From IMG/VR virus record IMGVR_UViG_3300017917_002551, positions 1 to 41,566 of that record: a DNA stretch of 41,566 nucleotides, one strand, 5' to 3'. This DNA comes from a virus. The notes under the pieces are model-generated. The model was not told the origin of the DNA, searched no databases, and worked only from the letters and a program-made list of their open reading frames with translations. The translations under genes were made by a program, and so were the position numbers. The first letter of the stretch is position 1. Each line of letters begins with the position of its first letter. Shown here piece after piece: positions 1,832 through 38,240 of the stretch.

Positions 1832-2713
1832 ATGTTTGATCTTATTACGGTTGTTTTTCGACCCGAAGTACTATACCTCAAAATTCAAGCCAAATCAATT
1901 GAAAACTATTTCCCCGACGATCAGATAAAAAATATCTACATAATTGTAAATGACAATGATGACGTTGTTGATTTAATAGATAAATCCTGGTACGGAAAAT
2001 ATGCAGATCGTGTGATTGTTTATCCTTATTCAGAGTTTGGATATATAAATCGTGTTGGCGGTTGGGACAATCAACAATTATGTAAAATACTAGCAGCATC
2101 ACGCTCACAATGTGAGTGGAGCATTGTATTAGATGCTAAAACGTTTTTTGTAAAGCCATTTAAAAAAGAATTCTTTATTGATCCAGATAATCGAGCATGC
2201 ACTCACCGATTGCGTCCATTTACTGAATTTGAGTCGGCTGGGGCATTTGTTGAAAAATTCTATAATATTGAATTTGACTATGTAATAGGTCCTGGCGGAG
2301 TTCCATTTATTTTTCATACTCCAACTGTATTATCATTAATAAAAGATACCGAAGTATTATCTAAACAGAATTTCATTGATTTTTTCCTAGATAATGTTTG
2401 CTACCCAAATTTAATTACCGAGTTCTATCTATACTCAGCATATGTAAAATACAAGCACGGAGATATACGAGCCTTGTACAACGATAAGCAACGTTGGGAC
2501 TGTGTAAATATTGCTGAATGGGAAGTTGAGAACTTCGACGAGCTATTCATAAAGATGCAAAAATTTATGGCTCTAACTGTAAGTATAGCATCAAAAGCAT
2601 GGGTTTTGCTTACACCTGAGCAACAAGTTTCGTACCTAGAATTTCTAAGCAAGAAGAATCTGCTTACCGACGTCCAAAATACTCAAAAAAAGCTAAATAC
2701 TGTTATCAATTAA
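1832..2713 (+). CDS. DUF6492-like glycosyltransferase-fold protein
   Basis: The 293-aa protein begins directly with a Rossmann-like strand (MFDLITVVFRPEVLYL) and carries the blocks GGWDNQQLCKILAA and VLDAKTFFVKP, which match the DUF6492 family as I know it. These are GT-A-like proteins whose aspartate-containing strand occupies the place of a DxD sugar-nucleotide site. A role in glycan transfer, to virion proteins, host surface sugar or modified DNA, is inference. No signal peptide is present. The stop codon is buried in an 11-bp perfect hairpin with a U-run (2695-2723), so transcription may end here. No Shine-Dalgarno motif is seen before the start, 11 bases after the previous stop. Confidence 0.65.
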   Translation: MFDLITVVFRPEVLYLKIQAKSIENYFPDDQIKNIYIIVNDNDDVVDLIDKSWYGKYADRVIVYPYSEFGYINRVGGWDNQQLCKILAASRSQCEWSIVLDAKTFFVKPFKKEFFIDPDNRACTHRLRPFTEFESAGAFVEKFYNIEFDYVIGPGGVPFIFHTPTVLSLIKDTEVLSKQNFIDFFLDNVCYPNLITEFYLYSAYVKYKHGDIRALYNDKQRWDCVNIAEWEVENFDELFIKMQKFMALTVSIASKAWVLLTPEQQVSYLEFLSKKNLLTDVQNTQKKLNTVIN

Positions 2714-2723
2714 CAGTATTTTT
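2695..2723 (+). terminator. Perfect 11-bp hairpin with U-run, terminator or lysis-gene attenuator
   Basis: AAATACTGTTA (2695-2705) pairs perfectly with TAACAGTATTT (2711-2721) around a 5-base loop, and the second arm runs into TTTTT. It spans the stop codon of the upstream gene (TAA 2711-2713) and ends exactly where the i-spanin ATG (2724) begins. The stem is AT-rich, so it would be a moderate intrinsic terminator; it also covers the space where a ribosome binding site would sit. Confidence 0.6.
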
Positions 2724-3209
2724 ATGTGGCTTTTACATTTATTACCTGATAGTTTAATACTCTTCTTTACCTACTGCATGATAGGTGCAGGTGTAATTGG
2801 CTTGCTAGTTAGCTGGTTTATTACTTTTATTCCCTTTATCAATATCTATAGGAAATGGATACAGATTGCTAGTATCTTGTTGCTAGTCAGCGGCATTTAC
2901 TGGTACGGCGGTTATACAGTAGAAAAAATATGGCGTGATGAAGTAGCTAAGTTAGAAGAAAAAGTGCAGGCCGCTGAAGCAAAGAGCGAAAAAACAAATA
3001 CTGTCATTAAAACTATATATAAAGATCGCGTTAAAGTTGTAAAACAAGACGTGGTTGTAGTTAAAGAAAAAATTAAAGAAGTAGAAAAACTAATAGACAA
3101 AGAATGCACAGTTTCGCCTGAAGCTATTAATATTTTAAATTCAGCAGCTAAACCTCGAAAAGGTACAGTTGAAGTTGGGCCATTGACACCCGCAGGAGAT
3201 AAGAATTGA
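2724..3209 (+). CDS. Inner-membrane spanin (Rz-like)
   Basis: The 161-aa protein has two hydrophobic segments near the N-terminus (about residues 10-36 and 46-64), then a long charged coiled coil (about 70-127, rich in Lys, Glu and Val heptads). It is followed, with a 4-base overlap, by a small lipoprotein gene: the classic i-spanin/o-spanin layout. Typical Rz proteins have a single N-terminal membrane anchor; a second segment is a deviation, and a later start (ATG at 2778) would leave essentially the second one. Spanins fuse inner and outer membrane at the last step of lysis in Gram-negative hosts. There is no Shine-Dalgarno sequence; the start abuts the hairpin at 2695-2723. The call rests on architecture and context, not on sequence identity. 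Confidence 0.7.
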   Translation: MWLLHLLPDSLILFFTYCMIGAGVIGLLVSWFITFIPFINIYRKWIQIASILLLVSGIYWYGGYTVEKIWRDEVAKLEEKVQAAEAKSEKTNTVIKTIYKDRVKVVKQDVVVVKEKIKEVEKLIDKECTVSPEAINILNSAAKPRKGTVEVGPLTPAGDKN

Positions 3210-3472
3210 AATACGTATTAATACTTTCTTTATTACTTGCAGGATGTTCGACTACTGTTCCTGTTAAACATCGATTCCCCAACGTGCCAGAAGAGCTGAA
3301 ACAAGAGTGTCCTGATTTAAAAGAGGTCACCGAAGGAACTACAAAACTAAGCGAAGTTCTAGGTGTAGTAACTGAAAACTACGGACAGTATAAAGAGTGC
3401 CAGATTCGTGTTGATATGTGGAACGATTGGTACGAAAAACAAAAAAAGATATTTGACGAAGCATACAAATAA
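3206..3472 (+). CDS. Outer-membrane spanin lipoprotein (Rz1-like)
   Basis: The 88-aa product opens with a lipoprotein signal, MKYVLILSLLLAGCSTT, with lipobox LAGC, so it is predicted to be lipidated at Cys14 and carried to the outer membrane. The mature part is short, has one proline-containing stretch near the N-terminus and two further cysteines (in EECPD-like and KECQ contexts), and ends in a charged helix. Overlap with the i-spanin (ATGA-type junction at 3206-3209) and the endolysin two genes later support an o-spanin role. Family sequences diverge quickly, so context carries the call. Confidence 0.7.
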   Translation: MKYVLILSLLLAGCSTTVPVKHRFPNVPEELKQECPDLKEVTEGTTKLSEVLGVVTENYGQYKECQIRVDMWNDWYEKQKKIFDEAYK

Positions 3473-3483
3473 AGGAGCACACA

Positions 3484-4005
3484 ATGTCAGAAGTTCATGA
3501 AGCCATTAAAGAAAGAACAGGTTGGATTATTACTTTCCTTGCTGCCTTTCTTGCTATCACCTCGCTATTAGACGGAGGAAATTCTTCCGACATTCTAAAC
3601 AAGACCATTGAAGCCAATAATTTATGGTCTTTCTACCAAGCTAAGAGTGTTAAAGGTTCTATCGCCGAATTAGCCTACGAAAATGCTGTTGAAAGACACG
3701 ATCGAGCAAAAGCCGACAAACTAAAAGCCAAGATTGAACGTTACGAATCAGATCCGGCCACAGGAGAAGGTAAAAAAGAACTAATGGCACGAGCCCGAAC
3801 TATTGAAGCAGAAAGAGCAGTTGCTGAGCAACGCAGCCCTTGGTACACTTATTCAAATGCATTTTATCAAATTGCAATTGTTATATTAGCAGCATCTATG
3901 CTGACCTACAGTAGAAAAATGTATTGGATAGGAATTGGACTTGGCGGTATCGCAATATTGCTAATGACACAGGGTGCCTTTTTATGGTTACCATTTAACT
4001 TATAG
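3484..4005 (+). CDS. DUF4337-like membrane protein in the lysis block
   Basis: The 173-aa protein has one N-terminal membrane segment (about residues 13-29), a charged helical middle (about 55-115, rich in Ala, Lys and Glu) and two C-terminal membrane segments (about 126-143 and 147-168). This topology and the YDNAVERHDRA-like middle resemble bacterial DUF4337 proteins. A good AAAGGAG precedes the ATG. Its position between spanins and endolysin makes a holin or lysis-timing role possible, but classic holins are smaller and lack a long charged loop, so this is inference only. Confidence 0.65.
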   Translation: MSEVHEAIKERTGWIITFLAAFLAITSLLDGGNSSDILNKTIEANNLWSFYQAKSVKGSIAELAYENAVERHDRAKADKLKAKIERYESDPATGEGKKELMARARTIEAERAVAEQRSPWYTYSNAFYQIAIVILAASMLTYSRKMYWIGIGLGGIAILLMTQGAFLWLPFNL

Positions 4006-5855: not shown

Positions 5856-6722
5856 ATGACCCATTACGCAACACTAGGCGTATCCGAATCTGCTAGTCAG
5901 GACGAAATAAAAAAAGCATACCGAAAACTGGCTATGCAGCATCATCCTGACAAAGGTGGTGATACTAATAAGTTCCAAGAAATTCAAAGTGCATACGATG
6001 TCATTGGCGACGAACAACGTCGCTCTCAGTACGATGCTGAACGTCGGGGCGGTGTCAGATTTAATTTTAACGGGCAGGATTTCGATGGAGGTATGCCCGG
6101 GGGCATGGAGGATATCCTACGCAATTTTGGATTTGCTTTTGGCCCAGGATTTGCTGCCGGTGGCGGCGGTGATCCATTTGGCGGATTTAGGCAACCAAGA
6201 CGTAACAAAGATATTCAAGTTGATATAGCAGTACCGTTATCAAGCACACTAAATGATCAGCAAAAAACAATTAGTATTCAAACCACTAACGGTGGCCGGC
6301 AAACTGTTGAAGTACAAATACCCAAAGGCGTCCGTCCTAATACTACAGTAAAATATCCAGGACTAGGCGACAACTTTTTTGAAAGTCTTGCCCGCGGAGA
6401 TCTTTTTGTGCGTGTGCATGTGGAAAATGATACTAAATTTCAAATTGATAATTTAGACTTAATATTAACAGCCGAAATAGATTGTGTTCGTGCAATGGTA
6501 GGCGATCATATAACCGTACAAGGATTAGACGGGAAACACTTTGAATTAACTATCCCAGCCGGAACACAACCTGGTACTAAATTTCGAATTGCTAATCAGG
6601 GACTTTATGCAATGAACCAAAATGTTAGGGGATCGTTGTTAGTCTCTGTTAAAATAAACGTTCCAGTTCAGTTATCAAGCGAACAAAAACAAACTCTTAA
6701 AGATCTATTTTTCATTCAATAA
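5856..6722 (+). CDS. DnaJ/CbpA-like J-domain co-chaperone
   Basis: The 288-aa protein has an N-terminal J domain with helix II KKAYRKLAMQHHPDKGG and the HPD motif at residues 30-32, which stimulates DnaK ATP hydrolysis. A Gly/Phe-rich linker follows (about 75-115), then a two-lobed C-terminal substrate-binding region with VDIAVPLSSTL and IPKGVRPNT blocks. The Cys-rich zinc finger of DnaJ is absent, so it is the CbpA (class B) type, at normal length. It would work with the host DnaK. No Shine-Dalgarno sequence precedes the ATG and the promoter at 5819-5847 predicts a nearly leaderless mRNA. The clpA-like gene follows two bases after the stop, so the two are probably one chaperone operon. Confidence 0.9.
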   Translation: MTHYATLGVSESASQDEIKKAYRKLAMQHHPDKGGDTNKFQEIQSAYDVIGDEQRRSQYDAERRGGVRFNFNGQDFDGGMPGGMEDILRNFGFAFGPGFAAGGGGDPFGGFRQPRRNKDIQVDIAVPLSSTLNDQQKTISIQTTNGGRQTVEVQIPKGVRPNTTVKYPGLGDNFFESLARGDLFVRVHVENDTKFQIDNLDLILTAEIDCVRAMVGDHITVQGLDGKHFELTIPAGTQPGTKFRIANQGLYAMNQNVRGSLLVSVKINVPVQLSSEQKQTLKDLFFIQ

Positions 6723-6724
6723 AT

Positions 6725-9016
6725 ATGGATATGCTACAGACCAATCCCGAAATTGATCACGTAATTGAAGAAGCTACACAACTAGCTATTAAATTAAGTC
6801 ACGAATATGTGACTTTGGAACATGTATTCTTATCGATGATAAGATACGAGCCGTTTAAAAATCTTTTAACAGATTATGGGATTGATATTAATTCCCTTGA
6901 CAATGATTTGGATGCATATCTACTATCCCAAATTGATTTGATAGCCAATGGAGAAGATCCGAAAAAGACGCATGCTCTTGAACGTGTGTTTAACCGAGCA
7001 TTTACGCAGGTACTATTCAGTTCAAGAACGCACATCACATTAATTGATTTATTTTTAAGTATTCATTCAGAGAATAATAGTTATGCACACTACTTCATGA
7101 CCAAGTATGGCATTGAACGAGCTAAACTAGTTGATTTATATAATAAAACATATAAAAGTGACAGCAGTAAAACTATAACAGATACTTCAAGAGCAGATAA
7201 GGTACTAGAACATTTCTGTACCAATTTAAATAAACTTGCTACAGAAGGAAAAATTGATCCGGTTATCGGACGCGACTATGAGACTAACGAAATCGTTGAG
7301 GTGTTAGCTCGCAGGAATAAAAATAACGTTCTATTAATTGGTGACCCAGGTGTTGGTAAAACTGCTATCGCAGAAGGGTTGGCATTAAACATTACGCAAA
7401 AAATTGTTCCAGACTATCTACACGACTACACAGTGTATAATCTAGACATTGGCACTATACTTGCAGGTAGTAAGTATCGCGGGGACTTTGAAGAAAAAAT
7501 ACAAGAAATCATTACTGCCCTTACAGTTAAAGGCAAGGCTATTTTATTCATCGACGAAGCACACCAGATGAGAGGTGCAGGGTCAGGTAGCCAAAGTGGC
7601 CCAGATTTTAGTAACATGATTAAGCCAGCACTGGCTAAAGGTAAAATTAAAGTTATTGCAAGTACTACTTGGGAAGAATATACACAGACCTTCGAAAAGG
7701 ATCGTGCGCTAATGCGTCGCTTCCAACGCATTACAGTTGATGAGCCAAGTCCGCAAGTTGCAAAAGATATCCTTAGGGGACTGAAACCAAACTTTGAGAA
7801 GTTCCACGGTGGCACTATTAGCGATAGCGCAATCGAAGCGGCTGTAGATCTTAGTGTTCGTTACCAGACTGATAAAAAACTTCCCGACAAAGCAATCGAT
7901 TTGATTGATGTGTGCTGTGCTCGACGGAAATTAACATCTAAGGGATGGACAATTATAAAACACGATATTGTTGATGCCATTAGCAAAATGACTAAGATAC
8001 CAGTCGAGCAAATTGGTACAACAGAAAATTCTAAAGGAATAGAACATTTAGAATCAAAAATAAAAACTAAATTGTTTGGTCAAGATTCGGCCGTTGAATC
8101 AGTACTTGAAAAGATTTATGTTAGTAGAGCCGGTCTTAAAACTATTAGCAAACCAGTAGGTAACTTCTTGTTCTTAGGACCAACTGGCACTGGTAAAACT
8201 GAACTAGCTAAACTGTTGTCCGAAAACCTTGGGATGAAACTACTAAGATATGATATGAGTGAATACCAAGAGCGTCATGCGGTTGCAAAACTAATTGGCG
8301 CACCCCCGGGGTATGTAGGATACGATGATGGCAATCTAGGTGGCGGATTATTAATTAGCGATATTGAAAAGAATCCTAACTGCATTATCCTAATGGACGA
8401 AATTGAAAAAGCACACCCTGATGTTAGTAATATTTTGCTGCAAATGATGGACGAAGGTACAGTTACATCTAGTAACGGTAAAAAAGCCGATTGCAGAAAC
8501 TCTATTATTATCTTAACATCTAACCTAGGTGCTGCTGATAATGAAAAACACTCAATCGGTTTTACCACACTAGAAAAAACTGGCGAAGATGATCGAGCTG
8601 TTAAGGACTTCTTTAGACCAGAGTTTAGAAATCGGTTAGACGGAGTTGTTAAATTTAATAAACTTGATAAACTCAGTATGAGAAAGATTGTGAATAAATT
8701 TATTACTGAGTTAAATGATCTAATGCAGGATAAACAACTACGTGTTCGTTTAACAGAAAAAGCAGTTGATGAGTTAGTAGCTAACGGATTTGACCCTAAA
8801 ATGGGTGCAAGACCTTTACAAAGAAAGATTAACGATAGTATTAAAGTTCCTTTAAGTAAAAAAATATTGTTTGAAAATATTAATGAAGGAACTACAATCA
8901 TTGTAGATTTTGCAGATAATGCTTTTGAATTTCAAACCGTAGAAACATCAAATTTTCAACATAGAATAGATGATAATGGATACATCATTTTGGAAGAACC
9001 TGTCGCCAAGTATTAA
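6725..9016 (+). CDS. clpA: ClpA-like AAA+ unfoldase
   Basis: The 763-aa protein has the Clp layout at almost the length of E. coli ClpA: an N-terminal Clp repeat domain (EEATQLAIKLSHEYVTLEHV), a first AAA+ module with Walker A GDPGVGKT (206-213) and DEAH box, and a second with GPTGTGKT (485-492). It lacks the ClpB middle coiled coil. It has IGF at 611-613 in the position of the IGL/IGF loop by which ClpA and ClpX dock on ClpP, then FRPEFRNRLDG. It should unfold substrates and could feed host ClpP. Phage copies of ClpA next to a J protein are uncommon; a role in remodelling host or virion proteins is inference. ClpA is favoured over ClpB because of length and the docking loop. Confidence 0.92.
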   Translation: MDMLQTNPEIDHVIEEATQLAIKLSHEYVTLEHVFLSMIRYEPFKNLLTDYGIDINSLDNDLDAYLLSQIDLIANGEDPKKTHALERVFNRAFTQVLFSSRTHITLIDLFLSIHSENNSYAHYFMTKYGIERAKLVDLYNKTYKSDSSKTITDTSRADKVLEHFCTNLNKLATEGKIDPVIGRDYETNEIVEVLARRNKNNVLLIGDPGVGKTAIAEGLALNITQKIVPDYLHDYTVYNLDIGTILAGSKYRGDFEEKIQEIITALTVKGKAILFIDEAHQMRGAGSGSQSGPDFSNMIKPALAKGKIKVIASTTWEEYTQTFEKDRALMRRFQRITVDEPSPQVAKDILRGLKPNFEKFHGGTISDSAIEAAVDLSVRYQTDKKLPDKAIDLIDVCCARRKLTSKGWTIIKHDIVDAISKMTKIPVEQIGTTENSKGIEHLESKIKTKLFGQDSAVESVLEKIYVSRAGLKTISKPVGNFLFLGPTGTGKTELAKLLSENLGMKLLRYDMSEYQERHAVAKLIGAPPGYVGYDDGNLGGGLLISDIEKNPNCIILMDEIEKAHPDVSNILLQMMDEGTVTSSNGKKADCRNSIIILTSNLGAADNEKHSIGFTTLEKTGEDDRAVKDFFRPEFRNRLDGVVKFNKLDKLSMRKIVNKFITELNDLMQDKQLRVRLTEKAVDELVANGFDPKMGARPLQRKINDSIKVPLSKKILFENINEGTTIIVDFADNAFEFQTVETSNFQHRIDDNGYIILEEPVAKY

Positions 9017-11390: not shown

Positions 11391-12608
11391 ATGTTTATTG
11401 CTGATTTATTTGAAAGTTATGTAGCAGAAGCCGGCCCGCAGTTAGTAGTACTATACCCGGGCCGTTTTCAACCTTTTCATCTTGGGCACGGCGAAGTATT
11501 TCGTAGCCTACAAAGTAAGTTCGGACGCGACAGCGTTTATATTGCAACTAGCAATAAAGTAGAACTACCAAAAAGTCCTTTTAATTTTTCCGATAAATCT
11601 ACACTAATGCATGCAGCTGGTATTCCTAGCGATCGCATATTAGAAGTAGTAAGCCCTTATAAACTTCCCGAACCTCAATTTAATCCCGCTAATAGTATTT
11701 TCATAGTAGCCGTTGGCGCTCCAGATCGAGAGCGTCTGCGTCCTGACAGCGTTAAAAAAGACGGCACTCCAGGATATTTTAAAACTTTTGAAAGTCTTGA
11801 TAAATGTACAACTGCTGATAAGCACGGTTATGTAATTATTGCCGATGAGCGTCAAAAAGTAATTACTATCAATGGGCAACAAGTAGATGTAAGTCACGGA
11901 ACTCCAGCAAGAGCAGTTTGGAATGACGTTAGAGACAATCCAAAGTTACGATCAGAATACTTAATGCAAATGTACGGGCGAGACGACCCAGAACTAGGCC
12001 GTGTATTAGATAAAATTCCACAGACTGTTAATGAAGATTGGAAGGACGATTATTCTCCCGAACAACTTCGTGCCGGAGAATTAGCTTATAAATTAGACAG
12101 ACACGATCAATATAATACTGGAAAATATCCAAAAAATCAAGATAATGTTGTGCGCCAGACTGGGGAAAGACCATGGGATACAAAAACTGTAGATATGCCT
12201 GGCGATTTTAAATCAAATACTCAAAAGACAGCCCTTGGTGATAAAATAGTAAACGATCCGTATAAACCCAACGACATGGGTAACCCATGGGATTGGGTGG
12301 ATAGCGAAGCACTTACTAATTATAGAAGAAAAAATCGTTTTTACGAAGAAGCGGCTGGCGTTGGAGTAGTCAAGGACGGCAACGACCCACGTTACAGCAT
12401 GGCTACAATGGGCGATGATAACGACGTAACTGCTGCTACACTACCTCGAATGATGGCAGGATATCATTTAAATAAGAAGTACAAAAAATTAAAAGAAGAA
12501 ATAGATACGCTTAAAGAAAAGTGGTCTGCAAAATACAAACGCAGTATTAACTGTAATAATCCCAAAGGCTTTAGTCAGCGGGCACATTGCCAGGGTAGGA
12601 AAAAGTAA
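11391..12608 (+). CDS. NadM-like nucleotidyltransferase with capsid-targeting-like N-terminus
   Basis: The 405-aa protein begins MFIADLFESYVAE|AGPQ, where the bar marks a V-x-E|A site like those cut by T4 gp21 prohead protease behind its capsid-targeting peptides. The nucleotidylyltransferase signature GRFQPFHLGH follows at residues 24-33, with the HxGH motif (His30, His33) of the NMN/cytidylyl-transferase superfamily, in the form typical of NadM. The enzyme domain covers about the first 190 residues. The rest is a low-complexity, Asp/Lys-rich linker with DDPELGR and DPRYSMATMGDD modules, a short coiled coil, and a basic tail with two Cys (388, 400). Substrate is not certain; packaging in the head is inference from the N-terminus. 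Confidence 0.8.
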   Translation: MFIADLFESYVAEAGPQLVVLYPGRFQPFHLGHGEVFRSLQSKFGRDSVYIATSNKVELPKSPFNFSDKSTLMHAAGIPSDRILEVVSPYKLPEPQFNPANSIFIVAVGAPDRERLRPDSVKKDGTPGYFKTFESLDKCTTADKHGYVIIADERQKVITINGQQVDVSHGTPARAVWNDVRDNPKLRSEYLMQMYGRDDPELGRVLDKIPQTVNEDWKDDYSPEQLRAGELAYKLDRHDQYNTGKYPKNQDNVVRQTGERPWDTKTVDMPGDFKSNTQKTALGDKIVNDPYKPNDMGNPWDWVDSEALTNYRRKNRFYEEAAGVGVVKDGNDPRYSMATMGDDNDVTAATLPRMMAGYHLNKKYKKLKEEIDTLKEKWSAKYKRSINCNNPKGFSQRAHCQGRKK

Positions 12609-12941: not shown

Positions 12942-13403
12942 ATGAAACCAACAGAATTTATAGTAGAAAATAGCGTAATTGCACAAGAAGCCGATGATAT
13001 GCACCGCGATCACGAAGTACAAATGGCTCGTAGTCAAATGTATTCTGCTGCACAAGCTGCAATTGAAATTCATCGTATGCTTAAAGATATTAGTGAAATG
13101 GAAGGGCTTGAGGGTTGGGTACAAAGCAAACTAACTTTAGCTAGTGAATACCTTGAAAGCGTTCGTGACTATTTAAAATACGAAGCGGTTAGTCAAGAAC
13201 AGGAACTAGCTGTATTTGCAGAAGATGCTGCTGAGTATGCTCTTGAGAAAATGATTAATGAAGAAGCTTCTGCAGGAGCCTCAGGATCAAGTGGTATTTC
13301 TATTAGCATGTCGGGTGGAGGTACTCCAGGTACAGGCAAACCAAAGAAGATTGCTAATGCACATAAGCCTAAGAAAATTGCTGTAGGAAAAGGCGTTTAT
13401 TAA
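12942..13403 (+). CDS. Putative head-packaged protein with targeting-type N-terminus, 153 aa
   Basis: The N-terminus MKPTEFIVE|NSVIAQE resembles the T4 internal protein III targeting peptide, as I remember it, with an I-x-E site after about nine residues. A helical domain follows (about 20-95; blocks HEVQMARSQMYSAAQAA and GLEGWVQSKLTLASEYL), then an acidic helix and a Gly/Ser/Lys-rich basic tail (PKKIANAHKPKKIAVGKG). The basic tail could contact DNA. It overlaps the next gene's start by one base. The helical block is, to my knowledge, recurrent in aquatic T4-like phages, but no function is assigned. Confidence 0.75.
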   Translation: MKPTEFIVENSVIAQEADDMHRDHEVQMARSQMYSAAQAAIEIHRMLKDISEMEGLEGWVQSKLTLASEYLESVRDYLKYEAVSQEQELAVFAEDAAEYALEKMINEEASAGASGSSGISISMSGGGTPGTGKPKKIANAHKPKKIAVGKGVY

Positions 13404-14479
13404 TGAGTAATATGCGCGATCTGCTAGAAAAAATGAATCAGTTCGCTGGTGAGAAGGCGGGACAAAAGCCTGGTGACCAAGTTCGTGGTATCGAACCAAT
13501 GCCTCGTAAAGGTGGCGGGAAAAAACATCCTTATGCTGGCAGATTGGTTGGCGCAAATGAAAGCTCAGACAATTTATTAAAAGAATTAAACACAGTCATA
13601 AACAGCGATCCGGTTAAAAGAGATTTATTTAAAGAATGGGCGGAATTTAAAGAAGGATTTGGGGATACAGTTAAATCCACGGCTGATAAAATTGTTTCAG
13701 CCGGCAGTGCTACTAGGGACGCACTTAGTAGTGTAGTGGATGCAATCCCAAGACCATTCGACGAAAAAACTTATCAAGATCGAGTTACACAAAAGCCAGT
13801 TGCCAAAGCAGACTGGCGGAACACTGACAGTAAAAAAGTACAAGAAGGAACAGCTCGAATCGCTGTAAGCAGAGATCCCGAAGATCCAGATAATTACGAT
13901 ACGATTAGATTTCATCGAGAACTCCCAGATGGTTCAATTATTGATATAGAACCTTATAGTGGATCGCATCGTAATTATTATCAACAAATAACAGGTAAAG
14001 AACCCGGGCAAAGTCCTACAGAAAAAGCAATGACTGATACTCTTACTAATATGATGCGAGAGCCGGTTAAAAAAGGCCCGGTTATCAATGAACCAATTCC
14101 GCTAGAACCGCAAGATAAAATTACACCAATTAAACAAAACCCTGATTCAGACGAGGAAGATGATATAGTTGCAGAATGGGGTGCATCTGGTACTGCTGTT
14201 GGTCCAGGGAATGATGATGCTGATCCTGTTGAGATTGCAGCACAACGAGCACAACAAGTGTCAGGTAAAACAGAACAACACAATCAGCTAATGAATCTAG
14301 TTGCACAAGTCAATGGTGCTAGATCGCAATTAGCTGACTTAAACAAACAATTTCCACAAGGTGCAAATCCAGTTGAAAAAGCAATGAGCTTGCAACAACA
14401 ACAAGCCCAAAAGGTTCAGATAAGCAGACAAATCGAAGACCTCATGACACAGGTAGCAGCATTAAGATCACAGGCGTAA
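13403..14479 (+). CDS. Putative head-packaged low-complexity protein, 358 aa
   Basis: It starts with a short amphipathic helix (MRDLLEKMNQFAGE), then KPGDQVRG and a basic Gly-rich stretch (RKGGGKKHPYAGR) before an acidic helix (about residues 55-75). V-x-E sites are present as KKVQE|GTAR and DDIVAE|W. The centre has a small strand-rich patch (RFHRELPDGSIIDIEP). The C-terminal 80 residues are a Gln-rich coiled coil. No enzyme motif. The N-terminal helix, the protease-like sites and the place in the 11391-17756 run suggest an internal head protein; this is inference. Confidence 0.7.
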   Translation: MSNMRDLLEKMNQFAGEKAGQKPGDQVRGIEPMPRKGGGKKHPYAGRLVGANESSDNLLKELNTVINSDPVKRDLFKEWAEFKEGFGDTVKSTADKIVSAGSATRDALSSVVDAIPRPFDEKTYQDRVTQKPVAKADWRNTDSKKVQEGTARIAVSRDPEDPDNYDTIRFHRELPDGSIIDIEPYSGSHRNYYQQITGKEPGQSPTEKAMTDTLTNMMREPVKKGPVINEPIPLEPQDKITPIKQNPDSDEEDDIVAEWGASGTAVGPGNDDADPVEIAAQRAQQVSGKTEQHNQLMNLVAQVNGARSQLADLNKQFPQGANPVEKAMSLQQQQAQKVQISRQIEDLMTQVAALRSQA

Positions 14480-14483
14480 AATT

Positions 14484-16934
14484 ATGTTCATTAACGATTT
14501 ATTTAAAGATAACGAAAAACCCTTAAACGAAGTTAGCAATGAATTGCTAGGACGTTATAAAAAAGCTGCTGGCGCTGATGCATCAGCTGCGGACAAGCGT
14601 GGAGACATTGAACGCGGTAATAAAAGATTTAAGGGAATAGTTAAAGCTACTGTCAAGCAAGGCGAAAACGATGTTAAGCGACACAAAGAGCAAGGTGTAG
14701 CGGAAGGCAGTAGTATTCTTGATATTCTTGATGTTCCTGAGAAAGTAATTCGTACAGCACAAGATGCAGCACGTGGTATGCCAACTGGTACAGTACCAGA
14801 CAGTAAAACTGATTTAGCAAATACTGCTGCTAAGGTTGGTAAACAGGTAATTGATACCGCAAAAGATGCGGCACGTGGTATGCCAACTGGTACTTCACCA
14901 AAACCACAAAAAGAAAAAGGTGTAGATAAAGATGTTCAAGAAGCATACGACACTAGCGAAGGCAACCGTGAATATTTTGATGATATACAAGAGTGGGCAC
15001 AAGCCGTACTAGACTTCGGGGGCGAAGTCGTCAAAGCCCGTGGCGTTTATGTAGCACACGGGTGGGAAGGCGAAGCTGGAGAATTTGACCCTGTTGCTGG
15101 CGAAGGTTGGTTAGTTAGCAAAGTTATGCGTGAAGGTGCAGAGACCTCGGGAAACAAAGTTAGTTACAATGGCCGAGTCATTGGCCACATTGCAACTGAC
15201 TTAGATGGCGATCCAATGGGTGTTGTTTATGATGGTGAAAACAGACCATACGAGATTTACGGCTATAATGATCTTGATGAATTAAAGAATGAAATGATTC
15301 ATGTGTACATGGAACGAGTTCAGCGAGGTGTGGCAGAAGGCTCGGAAACACACAAATATGAGGTAGTCGTCAAAGGACACAAGAGGTCATATTCAGTCTG
15401 GGTTGATGCCAAAAACGAAGAGGTTGCTATAATTAGGGCACAGCAATATGTGGCCCGAGAACACAATGACACCGCAAAAAGAGCAGCAGTAGTTGATATG
15501 AAGAAAGGTGTAGCGGAAGGTATTAGTGTTGTTGATTCAAACTACGACCTAGATCAAATGGTATTAACACTTGACATAGAAGGTACGAAAAAATATTTTA
15601 CTTACTGGGATTATGACGAAAACTTTGCGAATGCAGAGCGTAAAGATGTATTTGCTCAACTGCAAGAACAGCCTTGGTATGCGGGTCTAGATCATCCTAC
15701 CAAAATGGAAATCCTTGACGCCGCATATAAAGCCATACGAGGAGAGGAACCCAGCGAGTATAGACCAACTGTAGGTGACGAACCTTTAGACGAAGCAGGT
15801 CCATTCTCATACGGTGCCAAGAAGCCACGCAAAGGTAGTGTAGCAGATCTAGCAGCTAAAAAACGCAAAGAGCAGGAACGCGGCCAGCGGCCCATCGAAC
15901 CCCGGGATCAAATGGTAGGAGTTGCTAAGATCCTACCAAAAGATGTGTCGGAAGGTAAAGAAGATTTAAGCAAGTATTCTACTGAACGATTAAAAGCCTA
16001 TGTTGAAAAAGTATCAGGTGGAGGTGTTCCAGCATTTGGTTCTGGAGCACAACTAAAGCGTGTGCAAGCGGAACTAAAGCGTAGAGAACAAGGTGTGTCA
16101 GAAGCCTCTGTGCAAGACAAACTACATCGTCGTCATCAAGAATTAAGAAAAAAGTCTGGCTTGCCTAACCCTGATTATTATAAAGAACTACAAAAGTCTT
16201 ACGATATCGAAAATGATCAAGAAAGACTAGCAGCACAAGCAGATATTAAAAAGAAATACAAAGTTGCTGAAGCTCGCAAAGCTGAACAAAACTTTGATAT
16301 TGAAGATATTAAAAACTTAGAATCTATTAGAGACCTTGCTACACTAAAATTACAAGCATTTAATTTAATTAGTCGTCCTAGTGCTAAACCAATGAAACCA
16401 GAGAAAGTTGAATGGTTTAAACAGCGACTAGAAGATCTTAAGTCACCAATGGCAGTAATTAAACTAATGTACGATTTATTGTTAAGCGGAGAAGGACACT
16501 CGGTAATTGGTAGCAGACATAGTATGAAGGCCAATACCTATAGAGACAGATTTGGCGAAAGTAGTGATGGGTCAGTAAAATATGAATTTGATCTTGGCAA
16601 TGGCAAAAAAGATTATAATATAGAGAAGCCAGGCAAAGCCGGGGATAAAGTCGAACCTGATACAAGTAGAGCCGAAGCAAAATATAAACTTAACAATCCT
16701 TTGCGTAAGGTAAAATCAGTTAAAGTTGTTGATAAACCACAAGAAGACAAATCGCAGGTCAAAAACGAAGACATAGAAAAATATGTCGAAGAGCTAGAGC
16801 GAGCTGGTTATGAAATAATTACAGAAAAGAAAATTAAACAAAGGCTTGATCCAAAATGTTGGAAAGGCTACAAAAAATCCGGAACTAAAATTAAAGGAGG
16901 GGTGCGTGTTAATAATTGCGTACCAAAAAAATAA
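14484..16934 (+). CDS. 816-aa modular polyprotein with repeated V/L-x-E|G/A sites
   Basis: The protein begins MFINDLFKDNEKPLNE, close to the MFIADLFES start of the nucleotidyltransferase at 11391. It is divided by sites of one type: GVAE74|G, VQE153|A, GVAE285|G, GVAE345|G, LDE437|A, DVSE490|G, GVSE540|A and VAE596|A. Between them lie small modules of about 50-130 residues, several with their own strand-helix pattern, for example 286-345 and 346-437. Residues 95-103 and 129-137 repeat AARGMPTGT. The C-terminus is a basic tail with Cys792 and Cys812. The sites match the (L/I)-x-E|(A/G) rule of T4-type prohead proteases, with Val at P3. I infer a head-packaged precursor that is cut into pieces. 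No enzymatic motif seen. Confidence 0.8.
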   Translation: MFINDLFKDNEKPLNEVSNELLGRYKKAAGADASAADKRGDIERGNKRFKGIVKATVKQGENDVKRHKEQGVAEGSSILDILDVPEKVIRTAQDAARGMPTGTVPDSKTDLANTAAKVGKQVIDTAKDAARGMPTGTSPKPQKEKGVDKDVQEAYDTSEGNREYFDDIQEWAQAVLDFGGEVVKARGVYVAHGWEGEAGEFDPVAGEGWLVSKVMREGAETSGNKVSYNGRVIGHIATDLDGDPMGVVYDGENRPYEIYGYNDLDELKNEMIHVYMERVQRGVAEGSETHKYEVVVKGHKRSYSVWVDAKNEEVAIIRAQQYVAREHNDTAKRAAVVDMKKGVAEGISVVDSNYDLDQMVLTLDIEGTKKYFTYWDYDENFANAERKDVFAQLQEQPWYAGLDHPTKMEILDAAYKAIRGEEPSEYRPTVGDEPLDEAGPFSYGAKKPRKGSVADLAAKKRKEQERGQRPIEPRDQMVGVAKILPKDVSEGKEDLSKYSTERLKAYVEKVSGGGVPAFGSGAQLKRVQAELKRREQGVSEASVQDKLHRRHQELRKKSGLPNPDYYKELQKSYDIENDQERLAAQADIKKKYKVAEARKAEQNFDIEDIKNLESIRDLATLKLQAFNLISRPSAKPMKPEKVEWFKQRLEDLKSPMAVIKLMYDLLLSGEGHSVIGSRHSMKANTYRDRFGESSDGSVKYEFDLGNGKKDYNIEKPGKAGDKVEPDTSRAEAKYKLNNPLRKVKSVKVVDKPQEDKSQVKNEDIEKYVEELERAGYEIITEKKIKQRLDPKCWKGYKKSGTKIKGGVRVNNCVPKK
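14763..14893 (+). repeat. 29-bp direct repeat pair within the polyprotein gene
   Basis: Bases 14763-14791 and 14865-14893 are identical except for one position (gatgcAgcacg versus gatgcGgcacg) and encode DAARGMPTGT twice, with start-to-start distance 102 bases. The in-frame distance of 34 codons suggests a tandem duplication of one small module. Confidence 0.85.
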
Positions 16935-16937
16935 AAC

Positions 16938-17756
16938 ATGGACCCAAAATTTTTTAGAAAATACTCAGACATATTACGCGAATTTGGTGCAGACAATGGC
17001 CCAATTGGTGTAGCTGGACGACAACCTGCGCCAGCTGGTACAGCACCGGCAGCAAAGCCAGCACCAGGTCAGCCTGCTCCTGCTGCTCCTGCTGCACAAC
17101 CACAGCAACAAGGCGTAAGTCGTTTTGCAAATACTGCTGATGCGTATGATAGTGGCATTGACGGTCCCGCCGGACAAAGAACAACTATTAATACTAGCAC
17201 TGGACAAAGACAAACTAGCGATGCATCTGGAACTTCTACTGTTGATGCATCTGGAACTCCTATATCGCACACTACTCCTAACTTAGGTGGTTATTCGCAA
17301 ACAACATATACAGGCAGTGCAGGTAAAGGCCCAGCCAGTGGAGCACAAACTACAAACTATAGCCAAGGTCCGTTGTCGGTTACTAGAGATACTAATGCTG
17401 CTGGAAAGCAAACATCGTCGTCGGCAGAATACGATATGGGAGTTGCAAAAGCTACAGTGACACAACAAGGCGATGAAAATGCTCCGTTGCAAACAAACAT
17501 GCAGACCACACAACCAGCGCCGGTGGATGAGGATGGTATTCCTACAATATCAGATCCTAATCCAAGAGAACAACCGCATCCTGCTGATCAAGCATTAGGT
17601 GCATTGCGTACTCTTAGAAAATTAGCCGGTATAGATCGCGGTGATATTGAAGGTGCAGTTAATCAAGAAGTAACTAATATTGTACGATCACCACAGGACC
17701 CTAGTAGCAAAAACGTAAGCTTTATAAATCGTTTCTTCGGTCACAATAAAGATTAA
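16938..17756 (+). CDS. Putative head-packaged Ala/Pro/Thr-rich protein, 272 aa
   Basis: The first 15 residues, MDPKFFRKYSDILRE, form an amphipathic helix ending L-x-E like the other members of this block. The rest is low complexity: Pro/Ala/Gln-rich (about 20-65), then Gly/Ser/Thr/Gln-rich repeats containing pairs such as TSTGQRQTSDASGTSTVDASG (about 85-106), then a short helix (PADQALGALRTLRKLAG) and a C-terminal segment. It has no hydrophobic core outside the ends and is probably disordered. Context and N-terminus suggest it is packaged in the head. It abuts the next gene with a one-base overlap. Confidence 0.7.
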   Translation: MDPKFFRKYSDILREFGADNGPIGVAGRQPAPAGTAPAAKPAPGQPAPAAPAAQPQQQGVSRFANTADAYDSGIDGPAGQRTTINTSTGQRQTSDASGTSTVDASGTPISHTTPNLGGYSQTTYTGSAGKGPASGAQTTNYSQGPLSVTRDTNAAGKQTSSSAEYDMGVAKATVTQQGDENAPLQTNMQTTQPAPVDEDGIPTISDPNPREQPHPADQALGALRTLRKLAGIDRGDIEGAVNQEVTNIVRSPQDPSSKNVSFINRFFGHNKD

Positions 17757-18578: not shown

Positions 18579-19013
18579 ATGGACGAGTTACAACGAGCAC
18601 TTAAAATTGCTTTTGCAAGCGAATTTTCTTTTTACTTAAAAGCACATTATTTTCACTGGAACGTTGAGGGACCTAATTTCCCCCAATTACATGATCTGTT
18701 TGGTAAAATTTACGAAGAAGTGTATGGTAGTATTGATACATTTGCAGAAGAAATTCGCGCAACCGGCGCATACACCCCAGGTTCGTTTGCTCGTCTAAGT
18801 ATCCTAAGTTTAGTCGATGATGAAGTAGAGATTATACCTGCCGAAGCTATGTTATTAGAACTTCTTGAAGATAGCGAACGAATGGCAGAAATGTTTCGTA
18901 TAGTGTTTAATGCTTCTGAAGAATTAGGACTGCATGGGTTAAGTGACTTTTTGGCTGGACGTCAAGATGCACACAAAAAACATTCTTGGATGCTAAGATC
19001 TACTCTTAAATAA
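18579..19013 (+). CDS. Dps-like ferritin-family protein
   Basis: The 144-aa protein shows the Dps signature HYFHWNVEGPNFPQLHDLFG with His26 and His38, and the ferroxidase pair Asp53 and Glu57 in SIDTFAEEI. Dps subunits form 12-mers that oxidise iron and protect DNA. Length is slightly below the usual 155-170 residues, with almost no N-terminal extension, so the lysine-rich DNA-binding tail of E. coli Dps is missing. Role in infection is unknown; iron or peroxide detoxification is the natural guess. It is followed, 6 bases later, by the radical SAM gene. Confidence 0.85.
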   Translation: MDELQRALKIAFASEFSFYLKAHYFHWNVEGPNFPQLHDLFGKIYEEVYGSIDTFAEEIRATGAYTPGSFARLSILSLVDDEVEIIPAEAMLLELLEDSERMAEMFRIVFNASEELGLHGLSDFLAGRQDAHKKHSWMLRSTLK

Positions 19014-36544: not shown

Positions 36545-37042
36545 ATGACACCTGTTACATACAAATACACAAGTACAAAAGAATATCACGACGCATTTCC
36601 ATGTGCATACCGTCAATGGCGAGCTGACAGTCATTGTAATCTAATCCACGGCTATTCATTTAGCATGAAGTTCTATTTTGGCACAAACGATTTGGATGTG
36701 CGTAACTGGGCAGCTGACTACGGTGGGCTCAAAGAACTCAAGAAGATCCTAGAAGATCAATTTGATCACACTCTAATTGTAGCGCAAGATGATCCGGAAA
36801 TGGAGACATTTAAACTTCTGCAAGAAAAGAATATGGCCAAGATTGTTGTGCTGCCGCGCCTGGGCTGCGAAGGTCTTGCTGACATGCTGTACAAGTATGT
36901 TAATGGCGTTTATATTCCTGAAATGTGGGGGCAAGGTGAAGCAGAACGTCTTTGGTGCTACAGAGTTGAAGTACGTGAAACACAATCAAACATGGCTTTC
37001 CGTGAAGGCCATAGAGAATGGAATGAGGACTTGTTTGCATGA
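36545..37042 (+). CDS. queD: QueD-type 6-carboxytetrahydropterin synthase
   Basis: The 165-aa protein shows the T-fold: AFPCAYRQWRADSHCNLIHGYSF with Cys31 (catalytic Cys, as in QueD) and His35; FDHTLIVAQDDPEM with the family His; and RVEVRETQSNMA with the Glu of ETxTSxA. Unusually, two zinc ligands are different: Tyr22 in place of the first His, and Tyr37 where HGH has His. QueD converts dihydroneopterin triphosphate to 6-carboxytetrahydropterin. The gene has its own promoter and TAGGAG, and overlaps the cupin gene. It is a bit longer than bacterial QueD (about 120). QueD family is firm; the active site is odd. Confidence 0.85.
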   Translation: MTPVTYKYTSTKEYHDAFPCAYRQWRADSHCNLIHGYSFSMKFYFGTNDLDVRNWAADYGGLKELKKILEDQFDHTLIVAQDDPEMETFKLLQEKNMAKIVVLPRLGCEGLADMLYKYVNGVYIPEMWGQGEAERLWCYRVEVRETQSNMAFREGHREWNEDLFA

Positions 37043-37383
37043 TCAAATATAATATTCATGATGTAGGCGGAGAAGTTGTTAAAGACAACGAAACTTATCT
37101 GCTTAAAGATAATCGAACACTAAACAATTTAGTACTAAGTTCTACAAAATTGTATCGTGAGCAAAGCACACGAGGACATCGTCATCCTGGTCAGGAAGAA
37201 GTTTATTTCTTTGTTCAAGGATACGGTGAAATGATTGTAGGTAATGAGGATGACACGCCGTTTCCAGTTAAACCCGGAGACATTGTATTAATTCCAGATG
37301 GTGCATTTCATCGTGTTTTTAACACCGGCGAAATGAATTTACTATTCAACTGTGTGTTCGACGGAAAGAGAAATCATCAATGA
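37039..37383 (+). CDS. Cupin-domain protein
   Basis: The 114-aa protein has the two cupin motifs: GHRHPGQEEVYFFVQGYGEM (metal His and Glu) and PFPVKPGDIVLIPDGAFHRVFNTG. It is a small single-domain cupin that binds a metal. It is located between queD and queE with four-base overlaps on both sides. Its substrate is unknown: it may be an isomerase or epimerase of a sugar, or help with a deazaguanine precursor. Not known as part of the preQ0 pathway. Confidence 0.85.
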   Translation: MIKYNIHDVGGEVVKDNETYLLKDNRTLNNLVLSSTKLYREQSTRGHRHPGQEEVYFFVQGYGEMIVGNEDDTPFPVKPGDIVLIPDGAFHRVFNTGEMNLLFNCVFDGKRNHQ

Positions 37384-38240
37384 GTAAAATCAAAGTAGCA
37401 GAATTATTTTATAGTATCCAAGGTGAAGGACGCTTTATGGGCGTCCCTTCAGTGTTCTTGCGTACATTTGGATGTAACTTCAAATGTGCAGGATTTGGTA
37501 TGCCCAGAGGCGAACTAAGTGCAGAAGCCGAGGATATTGTAGTACAACATGAAAGAAAACCATATACAAAATACGAAGAACTTCCACTGGTTAGTACCGG
37601 GTGCGATAGTTATGCGAGTTGGCACCCATCTTTTAAGGACCTTAGCCCTGTACTAACTTCTGATGCGATCGTAGAACGTATTATGGAAATTCTTCCCCAT
37701 GGTAAGTGGAAGGAAGAGCATCTGGTTATTACTGGTGGCGAGCCATTACTAGGTTGGCAAAAACAATACCCAGACTTATTAAATCATCCTCGTATGCGTA
37801 AGTTAAAAGAGATTACTTTTGAAACTAACGGTACTCAACCGCTAACAGATGAATTTGAAGATTACTTGTTACAATGGCAAATGCCCGGAGTTAACTTTAC
37901 ACGAGAAATTACATTTAGTGTAAGCGCCAAACTACCTGCTAGCGGAGAATCTTGGCATGATGCTATCAAGCCAGAAGTTGTATGCCAATATGAAAATATT
38001 GGACACACTTATCTCAAGTTTGTTGTTGCTACAGAAGAAGATGTTAAGGATGCACTAAAAGCAACCGAACAATATCGCAATGCAGGATTTAAAGGTAGTG
38101 TGTATCTAATGCCTGTTGGTGGTGTGGAAAGTGTATATTCTTTAAATAATCGTGCAGTTGCTATACACGCAATGAAACACGGGTTACGTTATAGTGATAG
38201 ATTACAAGTACCGTTGTTTAAAAATGAGTGGGGTACTTGA
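37380..38240 (+). CDS. queE: QueE-type 7-carboxy-7-deazaguanine synthase
   Basis: The 286-aa radical SAM protein starts VAELFYSIQGEGRFMGVPSVFLRTFGC, as QueE does, with CNFKC (Cys32, Cys36). The third Cys is Cys75 in STGCDSYASW, 39 residues further on, with GFGMPRG and a helical insert in between. LVITGGEPLL is the GGE motif. QueE turns 6-carboxytetrahydropterin into 7-carboxy-7-deazaguanine (CDG). A cysteine arrangement with an insert has been seen in other phage QueE proteins as far as I recall. C-terminus overlaps the DUF2061 gene by one base. Confidence 0.9.
   Translation: MSKIKVAELFYSIQGEGRFMGVPSVFLRTFGCNFKCAGFGMPRGELSAEAEDIVVQHERKPYTKYEELPLVSTGCDSYASWHPSFKDLSPVLTSDAIVERIMEILPHGKWKEEHLVITGGEPLLGWQKQYPDLLNHPRMRKLKEITFETNGTQPLTDEFEDYLLQWQMPGVNFTREITFSVSAKLPASGESWHDAIKPEVVCQYENIGHTYLKFVVATEEDVKDALKATEQYRNAGFKGSVYLMPVGGVESVYSLNNRAVAIHAMKHGLRYSDRLQVPLFKNEWGT

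Follow-up and report, generated by a model that had tools for sequence, protein, structure and literature searches.

What does the 816-aa ORF at positions 14484-16934 (plus strand) encode: a single protein, or a chain to be cut into many? The ORF starts with ATG, its call was confirmed as real, and its product is here called P0001. It is found in a linear virus record of 41,566 bases, the whole of which was analysed and is referred to as the window. According to the initial annotation, P0001 looks like a polyprotein in which V/L-x-E↓G/A sites (the arrow marks the predicted cut) separate small, perhaps shuffled modules and are cut by a protease of the type of T4 gp21. Much of this stands, as we find a modular build, shuffled modules and gp21-type sites, and a gp21-type protease in the relatives. 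The reading we prefer, with a probability of roughly two in three, is that P0001 is an internal-head polyprotein of a T4-like jumbo phage, led by a capsid-targeting sequence (CTS), cut by gp21, and carrying exchangeable cargo that is shuffled at the joints.

All eight proposed sites are present between the modules, at E74, E153, E285, E345, E437, E490, E540 and E596, and a ninth match to [LIVMF]xE[AG] is found at E217. Composition shuffles give 2.75 such matches, compared with the nine observed (P = 0.0012), and V[AS]E[AG] occurs six times in P0001 and at most once in every other ORF of the window. In a homology search with the sites masked, breakpoints were found at the mask edge of 8/8 sites (residues 78; 147; 289; 339/349; 430/441; 484/494; 534/544; 590/601). 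The main joint is an 18-mer DNA element, CAAGGTGTGGCGGAAGGC, that encodes QGVAE↓G. At E153, E437 and E596 this DNA element is lost and the protein motif retained. The features of P0001 are the following, in window coordinates.

14484-14531, plus strand: CTS-like leader MFINDLFKDNEKPLNE↓V, residues 1-16, common to several relatives
14532-14705, plus strand: module 1, residues 17-74, seen from a match in cyanophage BUCT-ZZ01 and from breakpoints
14691-14708, plus strand: joint element copy 1, CAAGGTGTAGCGGAAGGC, QGVAE↓G, 1 mismatch
14706-14942, plus strand: module 2, residues 75-153, ending in VQE↓A, 81-82% identical in L002/L003
14943-15338, plus strand: module 3, residues 154-285, with an ordered beta/alpha domain at about 219-282 in the model
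15324-15341, plus strand: joint element copy 2, CGAGGTGTGGCAGAAGGC, RGVAE↓G, 2 mismatches
15339-15518, plus strand: module 4, residues 286-345, order relative to module 5 reversed in L011
15504-15521, plus strand: joint element copy 3, AAAGGTGTAGCGGAAGGT, KGVAE↓G, 3 mismatches
15519-15794, plus strand: module 5, residues 346-437, ending in LDE↓A, pLDDT about 81-94 for 361-420, present in L010 and L011
15795-15953, plus strand: module 6, residues 438-490, present in relatives, order relative to module 8 reversed in L033
15939-15956, plus strand: decayed joint element, AAAGATGTGTCGGAAGGT, KDVSE↓G, 4 mismatches
15954-16103, plus strand: module 7, residues 491-540, seen from the model, relatives and breakpoints
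16089-16106, plus strand: joint element copy 5, CAAGGTGTGTCAGAAGCC, QGVSE↓A, 3 mismatches
16104-16271, plus strand: module 8, residues 541-596, ending in VAE↓A, with 10 homology starts at the module edge
16272-16559, plus strand: module 9, residues 597-692, ending in FGE↓S, the commonest module
16560-16931, plus strand: C-terminal modules, residues 693-816, matching phrog_4359

The C-terminal part includes an LDPKCWKGYKK module that is common to cyanophages too. Module 2 contains an internal near-duplication (AxDAARGMPTGT), AQDAARGMPTGT...AKDAARGMPTGT, at window positions 14733-14900, residues 84-139.

Relatives of P0001 are encoded at 80 loci of uncultivated viruses, and a search of these loci found the same modules in other orders, as the initial annotation had supposed. 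Module 8 is ahead of module 6 in L033 and module 5 ahead of module 4 in L011, both the reverse of P0001, and module 9 has quite different upstream neighbours in L013, L023 and L025. In 34 related proteins, a breakpoint is found no more than 8 aa away for 60% of the sites, compared with 23-32% when decoy masks are used. For breakpoints supported at least three times, 33% are near a site, compared with 6-18% with decoys. A mask-edge artefact was tested as the cause, against decoy masks and an unmasked run, and rejected. When 113 element-bearing proteins were cut in silico at the sites, 396 segments were obtained, forming 285 families. Of these families 63 recur in at least two proteins, and for 44 of the 63 both the left and the right neighbours change. 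The proteins have a cassette architecture. Misassembly is an unlikely source of this mosaicism, because two near-identical cassette copies are found within one contig (L176) and both flanks differ in example cassettes; module families of divergent sequence change neighbours too.

The AlphaFold2 model of P0001, made from 26 sequences, has a mean pLDDT of 62.5 and a pTM of 0.30, and consists of ordered modules with low-confidence stretches between them. Taken with the relatives, these ordered segments bear out the distinct small modules suggested to lie between the sites. Five of the eight sites are located in segments with a pLDDT below 50 and E596 adjoins one; E490 and E540 are at module edges with intermediate confidence. 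A fold search with the model against PDB and BFVD gave no significant match.

The joint is a DNA-level element. The exact 18-mer is present in at least 120 viral stretches. In 80 loci retrieved by the element we found 221 copies with at most three mismatches, all in frame 0 and in the same sense, of which the 100 exact ones were selected for identity and the rest were not. In the same loci, base conservation falls sharply just beyond the 18-mer, and silent positions are as fixed as the others. The core is often flanked by AGC before and GCT after, i.e. by short inverted ends AGC...GCT. The codon comparison used relatives retrieved by protein search alone. At GVAEG-type sites the Ala codon is GCG in 38/52 cases, compared with 6.5% of the Ala codons in the rest of these proteins (P = 5e-34), and the Val codon is GTG in 84%, compared with 17%. 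Codon bias was rejected as the cause of the DNA conservation, GCG being so rare elsewhere. Each ORF contains one to nine copies with a median spacing of 78 codons (IQR 60-130). Two long related contigs contain two and seven copies, all in frame, several of them in genes with a leader-type start.

In bacterial and archaeal genomes (257 Gb) there are 26 scattered single 18-mer matches, never repeated. A bacterial origin of the element was rejected: the 26 exceed the about 8 matches expected by a composition-blind estimate, but many of them are in GC-rich genomes. Among 50,697 deposited phage records the 18-mer matches are only at chance level.

Homology at the DNA level ends at the element about six times more often than expected by chance in element-bearing regions, with 23.6% of 887 breakpoints in the element +-6 bp against 4.0 +- 0.8% for shifted elements. 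Because the element is itself shared DNA, into which alignments may run, this test describes where homology ends and not how junctions form. Cassettes of 97-99% identity are found in unrelated contexts, with the identity stopping at the element: 482 bp at 98.3% in L187/L191, 181 bp at 97.8% in L133/L198 and 180 bp at 97.2% in L130/L176, all with unrelated flanks on both sides. L176 has one cassette twice, 99.4% identical, in two different genes. The identity of the joint DNA may be kept by recombination; the joint may be maintained for recombination, or only spread by it. Two points tell against the preferred reading: 18-20 bp are few for RecA-type recombination, and a dedicated recombinase was not identified. 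In L191, positions 2300-3655 (minus strand) encode a leader followed by GNAT, ADP-ribosyltransferase-like and ParB-like modules, the last two recognised by eye; the middle cassette is the one shared at 98.3% identity with L187, and is there the final cassette ahead of the stop.

Fixed wobble positions and breakpoints at the DNA element would also be expected if the joint was a DNA-level recombination patch or a selfish short repeat, in chains that stay uncut and where QGVAEG is a flexible linker. We find this unlikely, due to the signal at the protein level. Copies with 3-6 mismatches remain in frame (83/84 at up to four mismatches). In decayed copies the non-synonymous changes per codon of Q-G-V-A-E-G are 109, 75, 78, 89, 43 and 101, i.e. 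the Glu codon is the best kept with 43 changes compared with 75-109 at the others, and in 51 of the 78 Val changes the new residue is Met, Ile, Leu or Phe. This is the pattern expected from selection for [VLI]-x-E↓(G/A). Further, the joints of P0001 that are not elements (VQEA, LDEA, VAEA) still fit the gp21 rule, the CTS-like leaders also end in [LIV]xE, and gp22 and gp23 of the relatives have the same type of site. We consider it likely that the joints are gp21 sites.

The internal proteins of T4 have a 10-residue capsid-targeting sequence and gp21 cuts after L/I-x-E (PMC9026906). The LNE of the P0001 leader is at residue 16, and the next residue is V, not A/G. The same type of leader is found with different first modules behind it in L002, L003, L005, L008, L010 and L033, and also on the cytidylyltransferase-like gene at 11391. 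In 168 proteins linked to P0001 by homology, a Glu after two hydrophobic residues peaks at position 9 (n=32, with at most 7 at each other position), in leader forms such as MRAxEFIxE↓ and MKPTEFIVE↓. A crude leader pattern matches 31/68 element ORFs compared with 147/1035 other ORFs (P = 3e-9). The leaders M[FI]I[NA]D[LIF]F of 14 genes are similar at the DNA level too (ATGTTTATTAACGATTTATTT), even for two genes within one genome, and leader DNA may be a 5-prime exchange patch.

For the protease, support for the initial annotation comes from the relatives. Peptidase S77 (gp21) is absent from the 41.6-kb window fragment, but the Pfam model identifies it in 12/50 contigs of relatives. A gp21 gene of a relative is, for example, at L082:1444-2079. 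Of the related contigs 13 are 200 kb or longer, and nine of these have S77; in the other four, which may be incomplete, it was not found. A gp21 profile built from the relatives gave no additional matches when run on gp21-negative contigs. The His, Ser and Asp positions, putative catalytic residues, are conserved in the S77 of the relatives. In two contigs examined gp21 is adjoined by gp22 and gp23, both named by position and resemblance. The gp22 of the relatives has several [VLI]xE↓[AG] sites (VTE↓A, VVE↓A, VQE↓G), and gp23 has a short propeptide, with a predicted cut ...RKYLAE↓S in one of the two contigs. S77 is also encoded by the cultured cyanophage BUCT-ZZ01, a Synechococcus phage that infects S. 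elongatus PCC 7942.

If P0001 was instead a prohead core or scaffold protein like gp22 or gp67, gp21 would degrade it into waste and the modules would be functionless after cutting. In T4, gp21 cuts gp22, gp67 and gp68 at many sites, into many fragments (PMC9026906). Module 1 resembles a piece of a small BUCT-ZZ01 ORF (42% over 48 aa) that is located between the portal and prohead protease genes, the position of gp67 in T4. However, in two relatives examined, G008 and G016, gp21 is accompanied by separate gp22 and gp67-like genes, and the element ORFs are located elsewhere. The cassettes are also diverse, with 285 families from 113 proteins. Several have a fold in the model, and among them are enzymes and signal-bearing domains (GNAT, cytidine deaminase, LysM, TAT), unlike a coiled-coil scaffold. 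Overall, a scaffold role is quite improbable. In 84 element ORFs the Pfam domains include GNAT acetyltransferase, DUF6321, GP88, LysM, cytidine deaminase and a TAT signal, and no peptidase domain was found by Pfam in P0001 or these ORFs.

The window is likely a fragment of a larger genome. The enzymes nearest to its T4-type family B DNA polymerase, at 42-51%, are from jumbo phages, including Sinorhizobium phage Phosso and Agrobacterium phage Atu_ph07. Replication and metabolic genes are among its other genes; within the 41.6 kb no head genes were identified, and no portal-gp67-gp21-gp22-gp23 block was found. Positions 5856-9016 encode a DnaJ-like protein with DnaJ and DnaJ_C domains and, immediately after it, a 763-aa Clp-type AAA+ protein, 18579-19013 a Ferritin/Dps-like protein (Pfam Ferritin, E 1.5e-18), and 36545-38240 two genes that by eye resemble QueD and QueE of the 7-deazaguanine pathway. 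The genes around P0001 are as follows.

11391-12608, plus strand: leader MFIADLFE↓SYVAE↓A, of the same type as in P0001, on a cytidylyltransferase-like domain
12942-13403, plus strand: start MKPTEFIVE↓N, similar to a T4 CTS; homologue of an L011 polyprotein module (E = 3e-20)
13403-14479, plus strand: gene with no assigned function, start MSNMRDLLEKM
16938-17756, plus strand: downstream gene in the frame of P0001, with TAA-AAC-ATG at the boundary; in L002/L003 its C-terminal part is joined to the polyprotein

A gene like the one at 13403-14479 directly precedes the polyprotein in L002, L003, L005, L007 and L013. At 16932-16940 the TAA of the polyprotein, an in-frame AAC and the ATG of the next gene follow each other, resembling gene fission or fusion. 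Since the gene at 12942 is a free-standing L011 module and the gene at 16938 is fused in L002/L003, one cargo occurs both free and chained.

A window with replication and metabolic genes and no identified head gene would suit a mosaic protein outside the virion, e.g. an early host-takeover factor, made by general T4-type recombination and not targeted to the head. We give this very little credence given the CTS-like leader. Moreover, the BUCT-ZZ01 relative UTS51990.1 is encoded among late genes, with terminase genes on one side and baseplate genes on the other, and a few element ORFs match PHROGs annotated as virion structural protein. UTS51990.1 has 612 aa and the sites LDE↓S, IEE↓A, IQE↓G and INE↓S.

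For the preferred internal-head polyprotein, the N-terminal leader (MFINDLF...LNE↓) would act as the capsid-targeting sequence and bring the chain into the prohead core. The gp21-type protease of the phage would there cleave the chain behind every [VLI]-x-E and release about nine to twelve small proteins. These would stay behind in the head as its internal cargo, and would probably pass into the host together with the DNA. We infer the cutting by gp21, the packaging and the ejection. That the pieces are injected cargo is plausible, and we lean slightly towards it. P0001 and its relatives have several unrelated domains per chain, and the kinds of domains in the element ORFs overlap with those of polyvalent proteins, for which injection is considered likely (PMC5512222). 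Modules resembling secretion signals, either TAT (RRGFLKGLG...) or hydrophobic (WKxxLxxAALAGAMA), are found soon after a joint or leader in L014:1953-3854, G008:34476-36722 and G016:54027-55862, and their sequences suggest export of a released piece.

In the same reading, the 18-bp element QGVAE↓G would be the preferred joint, and recombination between joints would swap, duplicate or fuse cassettes. As every cassette starts and ends in the same joint and frame, recombination would always remake an open frame and a cut site. A dedicated in-frame system for cassette exchange, where one 18-bp joint, invariant among diverse phages, is both the recombination site and the codons of the prohead-protease site, is a tentative proposal to which we give slightly less than even odds. 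If true, any cassette order would give working, separately released cargo. A polyprotein with standard joints would then be a plug-in cargo system, which packs and then frees many small proteins per gene, and to which a single recombination event could add a new host-takeover or counter-defence domain. The 18-bp joint would also be a sequence handle for finding many unknown small phage proteins in metagenomes, and raises the question of how distant phages keep so short an intragenic sequence the same even in its silent positions. Among 5.39 million open-access papers we found no mention of the joint peptide in the phage literature, and subscription journals may hold an earlier description; in the open-access literature a translated DNA joint is without known precedent.

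In T4-type phages, mobile regulatory cassettes called PeSLs mediate modular shuffling. Like the joint, PeSLs are short conserved DNA repeats tied to module exchange in T4-type genomes, but they are intergenic promoter/stem-loop elements, whereas the joint is intragenic, in frame and translated. T4-type phages are also known to pack and inject proteins, one per gene. The cutting and packaging, if true, would rely on this known machine of prohead-processed internal head proteins. Shared with T4 IPI-IPIII and Alt are a short leader at the N-terminus, closed by [LIV]-x-E near residue 9-10, a gp21-type protease (here in the relatives), and small variable proteins. However, a T4 gene encodes a single cargo protein and the IPs have one leader cut, while an ORF here can have up to nine element joints, which are DNA repeats and lie between different cargos. 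Many sites with the same motif in one chain are known from T4 gp22, gp67 and gp68 (PMC9026906), and multiple prohead-protease sites of this kind from the phiKZ and SPN3US propeptides (PMC5694885; PMC10052503). The fragments of those chains mostly leave the head, whereas here the sites separate modules that are distinct and mobile, and of which several have a fold in the model. Finally, the polyvalent proteins, which Iyer 2017 compares to viral polyproteins (PMC5512222), share with P0001 and its relatives several unrelated domains per chain, including GNAT, and likely injection. Their release is proposed to rely on a metallopeptidase domain within the chain, while the chains described here are without such a domain and bear a repeated site at their joints.
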